Shown here: piece by piece, positions 917-3,820 of the stretch
Layout: the number at the start of each line of letters is the position of its first letter
How positions within the stretch are numbered: position 1 is the stretch's first letter
Source: Pseudomonadota bacterium
GTDB taxonomy: Bacteria; Pseudomonadota; Alphaproteobacteria; Rhizobiales; JAKPQE01
Direction: 5' to 3'
Assembly (NCBI GenBank): GCA_029572955.1
Contig: JAKPQE010000058.1
Location: forward strand, 1 to 38,916
DNA: 38,916 nt
The notes under the pieces: model-generated
Told to the model about the DNA's origin: nothing
Seen by the model: only the letters and a program-made list of their open reading frames with translations
The model's database searches: none
Position numbers and translations under genes: made by a program

Positions 917-1852
917 GTGCAGCATTCGGTGGTCCTTATTGCAGGTGCGACGGCCAGCGGCAAGTCCGCGCTTGCCGTCGAACTCGCCGTGCGGCTCGGC
1001 GGCGTCGTCATCAATGCCGACGCGATGCAGGTCTATCGCGAACTCGACGTGCTGACGGCGCGTCCCGGACCGGACGATCTCGCCCGCGTCCACCACCTGC
1101 TTTACGGCCATGTCCCTGCGCATCGGCGCTATTCGGTCGGCGCCTGGCTCGCCGATCTCGGCGTCGCGCTCGAAGAGGCGCGGGCGGCCGGCGAGGTGCC
1201 GGTGATCGTCGGCGGCACCGGGCTCTACTTCAAGGCCGCGACGGAAGGTCTCGTTCCGCTGCCGCCGATTCCGGCCGCCATTCGCGCCGGGATCGCCGGG
1301 CGGCTCGCCGGCGAGGGCCTCGAAGCGCTCTTTTTGGAGCTTTCCCGTCTCGATCCGGTCGGGGCCGGACGGCTGCAGCGCAGCGACCGCACCCGCATCG
1401 TGCGGGCGCTCGAGGTGCTGACGGCGACCGGCCGACCGCTGCACGTCTGGCAGGCCGAGGCCAGGGCGCAGCCGCTCGTCGATCCGGCGCGCGCGCTGAA
1501 GCTCGTCGTCGCCGTGCCGCCGGCCGAGCTCGCGGCGCGAATCGCCCGGCGCTGCCGGCAGATGGTCGAGGCCGGGGCGCTCGCCGAGGCGGCGGCGCTC
1601 GCCGGGCTCGGGCTCGACGGGAATTTGCCGGCGATGAAGGCGATCGGCGTCGGACATCTGGCCGCCGTATCGCGCGGCGAACTCGATCTCGAAGCGGCGC
1701 TCGAGCGCATGGCGGCCGAGACGCGGCGCTACGCCAAGCGTCAGCGCACCTGGTTCCGCCACCAGATCTCCGGCTGGCGCGAACTGGCGAGCCCGGAACC
1801 GGCTGTGGCGGGGCGGGAACTCGCCGGCCTCTTCGCCGCGCTCGTTGGCTGA
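917..1852 (+). CDS. miaA: tRNA dimethylallyltransferase MiaA
   Basis: MiaA transfers a dimethylallyl group to N6 of A37 in tRNAs that read codons starting with U, the first step to (ms2)i6A. The protein has the P-loop GATASGKS at residues 10-17, the NADAMQVYREL segment just after it, VIVGGTGLYFKA in the middle, and the RYAKRQRTWFRHQ motif near the C terminus. I chose the GTG at 917 because it leaves the usual short lead before the P-loop and gives 311 residues, the family norm. The frame is open upstream as far as an ATG at 776, but that lead has no family resemblance and would run through the 815-834 palindrome. The Shine-Dalgarno is weak (ACAGG, six bases away). The gene is followed by 248 non-coding bases. 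Confidence 0.95.
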   Translation: MQHSVVLIAGATASGKSALAVELAVRLGGVVINADAMQVYRELDVLTARPGPDDLARVHHLLYGHVPAHRRYSVGAWLADLGVALEEARAAGEVPVIVGGTGLYFKAATEGLVPLPPIPAAIRAGIAGRLAGEGLEALFLELSRLDPVGAGRLQRSDRTRIVRALEVLTATGRPLHVWQAEARAQPLVDPARALKLVVAVPPAELAARIARRCRQMVEAGALAEAAALAGLGLDGNLPAMKAIGVGHLAAVSRGELDLEAALERMAAETRRYAKRQRTWFRHQISGWRELASPEPAVAGRELAGLFAALVG

Positions 1853-1900
1853 ACGGAGCCTGGCACGGGGCACGACTTTGTCCCCCTAAGATATGGAAAC

Positions 1901-1928
1901 TTGCGTATATTCGCATTCCAATCATAAT
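1901..1928 (+). promoter_or_regulatory. Putative promoter with overlapping palindromic operator for the ArsR-type gene
   Basis: A TTGCGT (1901-1906) and a CATAAT (1923-1928) stand 16 bases apart, a fair sigma-70-type pair in an AT-rich patch of otherwise GC-rich sequence. TGCGTATATTCGCA (1902-1915) is a near-perfect palindrome (12 of 14 positions) lying over the -35 box. A wider TGGAA (1894-1898) and TTCCA (1916-1920) pair brackets it unevenly. An operator here would let the regulator encoded at 2101 repress itself, as is common in the ArsR family. The implied 5' leader is about 165 bases. The promoter and the autoregulation are inference. Confidence 0.45.
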
Positions 1929-1960
1929 CGAGGCCTGCCACGCTTCTTCGAGGGGTGGCT

Positions 1961-1984
1961 GGTGCCCTTTGGGGGAAGGGCGCC
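1961..1984 (+). other. Stem-loop in the leader of the ArsR-type gene
   Basis: GGTGCCCTT (1961-1969) pairs with AAGGGCGCC (1976-1984) across a TGGGGG loop, nine pairs with one G-T. No T-run follows, so it is not a normal intrinsic terminator. It sits in the long non-coding stretch before the regulator gene, whose Shine-Dalgarno is more than 100 bases further on. It may be a leader structure or a 3' end for miaA mRNA. Confidence 0.3.
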
Positions 1985-2100
1985 TACGGGCCGACCGGCC
2001 GAGGCCGGGCGAGGGAAATAGGTCGAATCGACGACGTGGCCGTCCTTTGGCGGAGCCAGGGCCTGTGCTCCCGGGCGGCAGCGTGCGGGGGAGGAATGTC

Positions 2101-2424
2101 GTGGCCGATCTTGCGGACCTGCAGGACAATGCGACGCATGCCAGCGCCCTCCTGAAGACGCTGGCCAACGAATGGCGCCTGATGATCCTGTGTCATCTGA
2201 GCGAGGGAGAGCTGTCGGTCGGGGAGCTGGAGCGCATGCTCGGCCTCAACCAGTCGGCGCTTTCGCAGCATCTGGCGGTGCTGCGCCGCCAGAACATCGT
2301 CAAGACACGGCGCCAGGCGCAGCAGATCTACTATTCGATCGCCAACGACAAGGCGACGTCGATCATCTCCAAGCTCTACGATCTCTATTGCGCGACCGAC
2401 GTCGGCGCCAAGCCGAAGACCTGA
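2101..2424 (+). CDS. ArsR-family regulator resembling BigR/SqrR persulfide sensors
   Basis: A 107-residue winged-helix repressor. The helix-turn-helix covers LSVGELERMLGLNQSALSQH (38-57) and the wing follows at KTRRQAQQIYYSI (68-80). Two cysteines, C31 (in RLMILCHL) and C97 (in YDLYC), are 66 residues apart. I recall the same spacing between the paired cysteines of SqrR (C41/C107) and BigR (C42/C108), which form a polysulfide bridge on exposure to reactive sulfur and release DNA. The flanking EGELSVGELE also resembles that subfamily. The GTG at 2101 is chosen because GGGGAGG lies six bases upstream; an ATG at 2096 is out of frame. No sulfide:quinone reductase, rhodanese or persulfide dioxygenase gene is next to it; its neighbours are miaA and gltA. 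The sensor role is inferred from the cysteine pattern. Confidence 0.85.
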   Translation: MADLADLQDNATHASALLKTLANEWRLMILCHLSEGELSVGELERMLGLNQSALSQHLAVLRRQNIVKTRRQAQQIYYSIANDKATSIISKLYDLYCATDVGAKPKT

Positions 2425-2473
2425 GCGCGGGCGCGGTCCGACCGGCGGGCGCGGCCCGACCGGCAAACGAAAA

Positions 2474-2498
2474 GCCCGCCGCGACGATCGCGGCGGGC
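2474..2498. terminator. Bidirectional intrinsic terminator between regulator gene and gltA
   Basis: An 11-bp perfect GC-rich stem (2474-2484 with 2488-2498, loop CGA) is followed by TCTGTCTTTT on the plus strand and by TTTTCGTTT on the minus strand. It lies between two convergent genes, 49 bases after the regulator stop and 29 bases after the gltA stop, so it can serve both. Confidence 0.85.
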
Positions 2499-2527
2499 TC
2501 TGTCTTTTCGGCCGAAGGCCGGGCGCG

Positions 2528-3820
2528 TCAGTCGCGCTTGTCGTAGGGCAGGTAGTCGCGCGGCGCGGCGCCGGTATAGAGCTGGCGCGGTCGGCCGATC
2601 TTCTGGTGCGGATCCTCGATCATTTCCTTCCACTGGGCGATCCAGCCGACGGTACGCGCGACGGCGAACAGCACGGTGAACATGGCGGTCGGGAAGCCGA
2701 GCGCCTTCAGCGTGATGCCCGAATAGAAGTCGATGTTCGGGTAGAGCTTCTTCTCGATGAAATAGTCGTCGGTGAGCGCGATGCGCTCCAGCTCCATGGC
2801 GACCTGCAGCAGCGGATCGTCGGCATGACCGACCTCGGCCAGGACCTCGTGGCAGGTCTTCTGCATGATCTTGGCGCGCGGGTCGTAGTTCTTGTAGACC
2901 CGGTGGCCGAAGCCCATCAGACGGAACGGATCGTTCTTGTCCTTGGCGCGGGCGACGAATTCCGGGATGCGGTCCGGGGTGCCGATCTCCTGCAGCATGA
3001 GGAGGGCGGCCTCGTTGGCGCCGCCGTGGGCCGGGCCCCAGAGGCAGGCGATGCCGGCCGCGATGCAGGCGAACGGATTGGCGCCCGACGAGCCGGCGAG
3101 ACGGACCGTCGAGGTCGAAGCGTTCTGCTCGTGATCGGCGTGGAGGATGAAGATCCGGTCCATCGCGCGGGCGAGGATCGGGTCGATCGGATAATCCTCG
3201 CACGGCGTCGAGAAGCACATGTGCAGGAAGTTCGCCGAATAATCGAGCGAGTTCTTCGGGTAAACGAACGGCTGGCCGATGTAATACTTGTAGGCCATCG
3301 CGGCGATCGTCGGCATCTTGGCGATCATCCGCAGACTGGCGATCATGCGCTGGTGCGGATCGGAGATGTCGAGCGAGTCGTGATAGAAGGACGAGAGCGC
3401 ACCGACCACGCCGACCATGACCGCCATCGGATGGGCGTCACGACGGAAGCCCGAGAAGAAGCGGGTCATCTGCTCGTGGATCATGGTGTGGCGCGTCACG
3501 CGCCGGTCGAAGTCTTCCTTCTGGGCATGGTTCGGCAGCTCGCCGTAGAGCAGCAGGTAGCAGGTCTCGAGGAAATCGCCGTTCTCGGCGAGCTCGTCGA
3601 TGGCATAACCGCGATAGAGCAGAACGCCCTCGTCGCCGTCGATATAGGTGATCTCGGACGAGCACGAGGCCGTCGAAGTGAAACCGGGGTCGTAGGTGAA
3701 GGCTTTGGTCTGACCATAAAGCTTTGTGATATCAATGACATCTGGGCCGATAGAGCCCGAATGGATGGGCATCGACCAGCTCTGGTCGCCAATTGTCAGG
3801 GTAGCCGTCTTTTCGGACAT
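2528..3820 (-). CDS. gltA: Citrate synthase
   Basis: Condenses oxaloacetate and acetyl-CoA to citrate at the entry of the TCA cycle. The 430-residue protein matches the length of type II hexameric citrate synthases. The catalytic residues are in place: H265 in [12 protein letters not shown]306 in [14 protein letters not shown] and D364 in NIDFYSGIT. The ATG at 3820 is preceded by GAGGAGG; upstream open frame is not conserved-looking. It ends just before the two-way terminator. gltX lies upstream on the same strand with a 198-base gap, enough for a separate promoter. Confidence 0.98.

Follow-up and report, generated by a model that had tools for sequence, protein, structure and literature searches.

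An unlinked two-cysteine ArsR-family protein as a candidate trans-acting repressor of sulfur oxidation genes in an alphaproteobacterium

Results

The arsR Gene and Its Surroundings

The window analyzed here is a stretch of 38,916 bases that makes up the whole of contig C182 of its own genome (G000; 3.76 Mb, 182 contigs, 98.7% complete, 3.6% contamination). It carries a gene for an ArsR-family regulator, arsR, which stands alone, flanked by miaA and the convergent gltA (Table 1). The first-pass annotation had noted that no sulfide-oxidizing gene lies next to it, and our search agreed with this: none of the sulfur-oxidation markers used as queries was found in the whole window. No RNA element of the window gave an Rfam match. 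In a tblastn search covering 97 sequences, many of them only 3 kb long, the only pieces in which miaA and gltA adjoined arsR came from the contig of the window itself; because the arrangement was not found at other loci, miaA-arsR-gltA was rejected as a conserved unit.

The sigma-70 scan found no promoter in the upstream region of arsR, and the promoter boxes in Table 1 were read by eye. On this reading, the candidate dyad lies between the -35-like and -10-like boxes, a position from which a repressor would shut off its own transcription. If the reading is right, the arsR mRNA would also have a leader of about 165 bases (window 1930-2100); the folding of this leader was no better than that of shuffled sequences (z -1.18).

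Table 1. Features at the arsR locus, with positions in the window.
Feature	Position	Strand	Remark
miaA, upstream neighbor	917..1852	+	context only
19-base block AAACTTGCGTATATTCGCA, shared without a mismatch with the region ahead of the dsr-linked ortholog in G001	1897..1915	+	promoter comparison
-35-like box CTTGCG	1900..1905	+	read by eye
Imperfect dyad TGCGTATATTCGCA, candidate autoregulatory operator	1902..1915	.	inside the 19-base block
-10-like box CATAAT, 17 bases past the -35-like box	1923..1928	+	read by eye
Ribosome-binding site GGGGGAGG ahead of the arsR start	2087-2094	+	read by eye
arsR, two-cysteine ArsR-family regulator, 107 aa	2101..2424	+	GTG start
C31 codon TGT (helix 2)	2191..2193	+	
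C97 codon TGC (end of helix 5)	2389..2391	+	
Terminator-like stem-loop separating arsR from convergent gltA	2473..2499	+	1 found vs 0.6 expected (shuffles)
gltA, downstream neighbor, convergent	2528..3820	-	context only

The Cysteine Pair and the Predicted Fold

The product matched PF01022 (E 3.8e-15), the ArsR-type winged helix. Its cysteines C31 and C97 are 66 residues apart, and phmmer aligned the protein without gaps across both of them to HlyU (5znx, 3jth, 4k2e), BigR (3pqj), and SqrR (13ct). The pairs Cys41/Cys107 of SqrR and Cys42/Cys108 of BigR are both 66 residues apart (PMC9774590, excerpts), and the HlyU pair is given as C38 and C104, with Cys101 printed elsewhere in the same paper (PMC10509353, excerpts). 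A pair at the spacing of the window protein was present in 91 of 99 distinct relatives, which exceeds chance: 87 fitted the script pattern (Cys-65-Cys), and four (L012, L129, L226, and L237) were added by inspecting the 12 that the pattern had missed. One further relative, L239, has both cysteines, 67 residues apart, and seven (L029, L074, L238, L245, L247, L248, and L250) lack one or both.

The predicted structure (pLDDT 89, in a model built from an 18-row alignment) has helices at residues 4-21, 24-33, 40-47, 51-63, and 83-97 and strands at 67-72 and 75-80. In this model, C31 falls within helix 2 (residues 24-33) and C97 closes helix 5 (residues 83-97). The cysteines of persulfide sensors lie in helices 2 and 5 (PMC10509353, excerpts), and the window protein fits this placing. 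The two-cysteine signature described by the first-pass annotation thus stands, and assignment of the protein to the reactive-sulfur-sensing two-cysteine class of ArsR regulators is well supported.

Placement Among Known Regulators

The best NCBIfam model for the protein was BigR (NF040642), with 113.6 bits against a curated cut-off of 155, and identity with BigR was therefore rejected. A tree built from 74 rows and 113 columns, without NolR, SoxR, and sHdrR, puts SqrR and BigR in a clade (97/90) separate from the window protein. Trees uniting the window protein with SqrR (p-AU 2.4e-5) or with SqrR and BigR together (p-AU 1.5e-4) were excluded on these few columns, with long BigR and YgaV branches, so the identity with SqrR and the joint grouping were both rejected. 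Accordingly, the protein does not belong with SqrR and BigR; the SqrR-like protein of this genome is a paralog on contig C100. In the proposed phylogenetic check, the tree neighbors of the window protein carry both cysteines, and the grouping with cysteine-less ArsR proteins that the first-pass annotation had named as counterevidence was absent; the protein stands apart from BigR/SqrR and YgaV. NolR, which is outside the rows of the tree, scored 74.9 bits against the window protein in phmmer.

Comparison with characterized regulators revealed likenesses and differences in each case. SqrR of Rhodobacter capsulatus is likewise an ArsR winged helix protein with its cysteines (C41/C107) 66 residues apart, but it belongs to the other clade. 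BigR of Xylella (3pqj) has the same cysteine pair; it differs in that the window protein falls below the NF040642 cut-off and that its gene has no adjoining dioxygenase marker. YgaV of E. coli, a two-cysteine ArsR protein with 46% identity to the window protein, lies in another tree group on a long branch, and its gene adjoins the sulfurtransferase gene ygaP. HlyU of Vibrio (3jth, 5znx) was the top phmmer match among solved structures and has the same cysteine pair, but it falls in a different tree group. Its target is a hemolysin gene, not sulfur oxidation. HlyU is persulfide-responsive (PMC10509353, excerpts). SoxR and sHdrR of Hyphomicrobium denitrificans are two-cysteine ArsR repressors of sulfur-oxidation genes, and each acts at several promoters (PMC10451225, PMC12423496, excerpts). 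When sulfur bridges its two cysteines, SoxR of Hyphomicrobium drops its DNA (PMC10451225, PMC12423496, excerpts), and by homology the window protein should show the same sulfur-dependent release. SoxR and sHdrR differ in that their known targets are the sox and lip-shdr-lbpA genes, and neither text contains any mention of dsrAB (PMC10451225, PMC12423496).

Relatives and Their Gene Neighborhoods

The nearest relative, from the same family, is encoded in G001 and shares about 75-76% identity with the window protein (81% over residues 1-100); the two form a group of their own in the tree (100/82). The G001 gene follows cysG; dsrA is 3.5 kb away, and dsrB and dsrE come after it. The longest block common to the two arsR upstream regions was 19 bases (Table 1), compared with 10 bases in 60 shuffled pairs. 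As judged from their position as tree sisters and this common promoter block, the window gene is an ortholog of the dsr-linked arsR gene of G001.

More distant relatives are also found among sulfur genes. The genes of G023 (67% identity) and G162 (63%) are divergent to yeeE, which is followed by genes for DsrE2, TusA, and a FadL-like protein; that of G048 is divergent from those for DsrE2 and TusA, close to a persulfide dioxygenase gene; and at locus L014 the order is dsrKLJOPN, tusA-dsrE2, and then the arsR relative. The window row clusters with those of G001, G023, G162, and the gammaproteobacteria in a single group of 30 rows (84/87, on an unstarred branch), outside which the G048 and L014 rows lie. 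Among the 26 gammaproteobacterial loci, LbpA is encoded upstream in 24, and sHdrB2 as well in 22 of these. One of the remaining two has TusA-DsrE2, and the contig of the other (L022) starts 53 bases before the match, too short a stretch to back the sHdr-LbpA label that it bears in the tree. Thus, the description of the regulator as an orphan is correct for this genome and fails for its relatives, which have dsr, TusA-DsrE2, YeeE, persulfide dioxygenase, or sHdr-LbpA neighborhoods.

A sulfur marker was found within 5 kb at all five loci with ≥ 64% identity, at 44 of 56 loci with 55-63%, at 16 of 23 with 50-54%, and at 5 of 11 below 50%; these counts include marker queries drawn partly from the counted loci, and the 55-63% row is inflated by the 26 gammaproteobacterial loci, which are mutual close relatives. 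In that row, 12 of the 56 relatives had no marker within 5 kb. L001, being one and the same contig as L075, was left out of the count. Of 385 genomes sampled from the class, 32, including G000, gave a match of E 1e-28 or better, and the wide loci from these genomes contained a marker in 21 of 31 cases (mostly TusA, TauE, YeeE, or a dioxygenase) and none in 10. The names DsrA, DsrB, and DsrE2 rest on matches above NCBIfam cut-offs, and TusA, YeeE, DsrC, and CysG on matches above Pfam cut-offs; the dioxygenase matches Blh but stays below its cut-off, and for the remaining Dsr, sHdr, LbpA, and Qmo proteins the names follow resemblance and gene order.

The gammaproteobacterial arrangement is an observation in its own right. 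In 24 loci of metagenome-assembled genomes from Woeseiaceae and other gammaproteobacteria (L002-L013, L015-L021, L023, L024, and L026-L028), the two-cysteine arsR follows lbpA, mostly ending an shdr-like operon and preceding a FadL-like gene. Two-cysteine relatives of sHdrR are described as seldom encoded near shdr genes (PMC12423496 section 2.1), and these loci are an exception to the rarity stated there.

Sulfur Oxidation Genes and Paralogs in the Same Genome

The own genome carries dsrA, dsrB, dsrK, a dissimilatory-type sat with adjoining qmo-like genes, three DsrE2 genes (one cut by a contig end), two TusA genes, and fccAB with FCSD domains. The remaining dsr genes are on contig C60. The reverse-Dsr (rDsr) set, sat, tusA-dsrE2, and fccAB are all on contigs other than that of the window. 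SoxB gave only a match below the cut-off in G000 and one above it in G001. The sHdrB1 and LbpA queries had no match in either genome, and the dioxygenase query matched only weakly and in part.

Two features of the dsr contigs should be mentioned. First, pieces of dsrA lie at the ends of contigs C7 (L098 3-638, minus strand) and C60 (L097 1-924, plus strand); they overlap by 287 bases with only 80.8% identity (78 of 95 residues), which could mean that the genome has two copies of dsrA or that the bin is mixed. Second, the place after cysG that arsR takes in G001 is occupied in G000 by a YafQ/RelE-RelB toxin-antitoxin pair (L098 4101-4632, minus strand).

The window regulator has four close and three weaker paralogs in G000. 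Both cysteines are kept in three of the four close ones, on contigs C136 (60% identity), C100 (SqrR-like), and C117, and the C181 copy lacks the first.

Candidate Operators in G000 and G001

The sequence TTGCGTATATTCGCA (1901-1915) has exactly one exact match in the 3.76 Mb genome. With up to three mismatches, it was found at 24 places in G000 and 35 in G001, compared with 14 and 22 for the reversed pattern, so many of these weak matches must be due to chance. The 24 places in G000 correspond to 22 distinct sites, 12 of them intergenic, and five of the 12 precede arsR itself, the rhodanese gene (two mismatches), the two-cysteine paralog on C117, the tusA-dsrE2 genes on C117 (three mismatches), and fccAB. 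The fccA promoter contains TTGCGTATAATTGCG 45 bases ahead of the start and a second TGCGTATA. Among the 24 places inspected in G001, no recognized sulfur-oxidation gene was found besides the dsr-linked arsR.

GAATAT or its complement ATATTC was present upstream in 8 of 10 arsR or sulfur regions of G000 versus 5 of 93 others (p 2e-7, for a hexamer picked after the regions had been seen). When k-mers were compared between 46 target regions and 230 controls from other genomes, the 15 top-ranking 6-mers did not include GAATAT; the best 7-mer was ATACGCA/TGCGTAT (8 of 46 target regions versus 2 of 230 controls). A profile of arsR sites from other genomes ranked the own arsR promoter first in G000 (27.2; next score, 21.3) and gave 16.2 for the fccA and tusA-dsrE2 promoters and 9.6 for the dsrA promoter (rank 20 of 190), although these ranks are biased because most of loci L149-L167 were chosen for matching the operator. 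The genome-wide operator search that the first-pass annotation had suggested therefore yielded candidate sites at fccAB, the rhodanese gene, and tusA-dsrE2 and a weak one at dsrA.

The operator of SqrR has the form ATTC-N8-GAAT. This form, with spacers of 6-10, matched 4 of 18 regions: arsR-yeeE in G023 and, in G000, dsrA, the dsrE2 gene on C127, and sat-qmo. A comparison of dsrA and dsrE2 promoter regions (L098 639-1046, the C7 dsrA-tauD intergenic region; L075 11413-11808; L099 10228-10533; L104 9247-9464) showed that the dsrA promoters of G000 and G001 have TTGCTGATATGAA and ATCGATATATGAT in common, and the dsrE2 promoters AATTTTCTGATATAT. These blocks are perhaps the site of a second regulator. 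The pattern TTNCTGATATNNA occurred three times in G000 and five times in G001, compared with 0 and 4 for its reversed form.

Operator-like sites were also seen beyond the sulfur genes. Two lie upstream of an RND efflux operon (L152 4757-5089, contig C44); RND pumps are named as targets of such regulators (PMC12423496 section 2.1). Another (L163 5001, contig C136) precedes genes for ArsR, an ArsE-like thioredoxin, and a permease.

A Dyad Common to the arsR and dsrA Promoters of Two Relatives

In each of G023 and G162, GCATATNNGAATATG matches exactly at two places and no more, one in the arsR-yeeE and one in the dsrA-tauD intergenic region, which are on different contigs. Since GCATATNNGAATATG was built from these arsR and dsrA promoters, their matching is by construction; the informative part is that unlinked promoters have one dyad in common, with no further exact site in the genome. 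When one mismatch was allowed, the reversed pattern still gave no sites in either genome, and GCATATNNGAATATG gave one extra site in G023, flanked by genes not recognized as sulfur genes, and three in G162, one of them ahead of sat. No exact site was found in G048, G167, G001, or G000, and GCATATNNGAATATG was rejected as an operator of G000 and G001, where no site was found even at one mismatch. This arsR-dsrA dyad, found in relatives, is the strongest link. The unlinked position of the window gene is no obstacle to such regulation, since G023 and G162 too carry arsR and dsr on separate contigs.

Discussion

Based on these results, we consider it fairly probable that the window gene encodes an unlinked ArsR repressor that is released by sulfane sulfur and acts in trans on sulfur oxidation. 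The family, the cysteine placing, the orthology to the dsr-linked gene, and the presence of sulfur-oxidation genes are read from the sequence, as are the dyad conserved in the promoter of the gene itself and the exact arsR/dsrA dyad in two relatives. From these we infer a dimer, a sulfur bridge, release from DNA, and the identity of the genes controlled in G000. The gene is the unlinked ortholog of a regulator that close relatives house in reverse-Dsr or TusA-DsrE2-YeeE sets. The reduced protein would occupy, as a dimer, a short A+T-rich dyad overlapping promoters, its own included, and would repress its own gene and the sulfur-oxidation genes until sulfane sulfur accumulates. Sulfane sulfur bridging C31 and C97 would then cause the protein to leave the DNA, and sulfide and sulfur oxidation genes elsewhere in the genome would be switched on. 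A point against this explanation is that the three further two-cysteine paralogs in G000 could bind the same candidate sites. In the first-pass annotation, the protein was proposed to be a global sensor acting at a distance. Action at a distance is the likely mode, given the exact dyad common to arsR and to dsrA on another contig in G023 and G162 and the weaker operator-like sites ahead of fccAB, the rhodanese gene, and tusA-dsrE2 in G000; the term "global" found no support.

A sulfur sensor with a narrower regulon, limited to itself and perhaps fccAB, the rhodanese gene, and one tusA-dsrE2, with dsr under another factor or paralog, is unlikely but fits several of the observations, namely the two elements in the fccA promoter, the rhodanese and tusA-dsrE2 sites, and the other blocks common to the G000 and G001 dsrA promoters. 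This does not agree well with the relatives, because the dyad of the G023 and G162 ortholog also stands ahead of dsrA, and arsR lies inside the dsr cluster in G001 and L014. It is improbable that the window gene is a redundant, translocated, and relaxed copy, with the work done by the paralog on C136, the SqrR-like one on C100, or the one on C117. All three retain both cysteines, but the window gene itself keeps 75% identity to the G001 protein, both cysteines, and the 19-base promoter block, and GAATAT is absent upstream of the C136 paralog. Sensing of peroxide or disulfide stress instead of sulfane sulfur is suggested by RexT, a dithiol ArsR protein that responds to H2O2 (PMC10509353, excerpts), and we regard it as very improbable here, since the RexT cysteines are in helix 3 (PMC10509353, excerpts), those of the window protein are in helices 2 and 5, and the neighborhoods of the relatives consist of sulfur genes. 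Local action on gltA or miaA, which adjoin arsR, has equally little to recommend it, because a terminator-like site separates arsR from the convergent gltA, miaA is the upstream gene and runs in the same direction, and among the 97 sequences searched, many only 3 kb long, the two genes flank arsR in the window's own contig only.

The mechanism of a two-cysteine repressor released by sulfur is already known. In contrast, no ArsR-type regulator of rDsr was met in the literature searched, including the excerpts of PMC11582611, PMC9774590, and PMC4959651; within dsr operons, dsrD has been named as a putative regulator of transcription (PMC4959651, excerpts). Beyond the trans-acting sulfur-released repressor that we favor, there is about an even chance that a dedicated sulfane-sulfur-released repressor of rDsr exists, that the window gene is a member that left its cluster, and that it runs sulfur import, the DsrE2/TusA relay, and DsrAB in trans via one operator. 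The Dsr pathway of sulfur oxidizers must come on only when sulfur is available, and a candidate regulator with a dyad common to the arsR and dsrA promoters makes the question of rDsr regulation testable.
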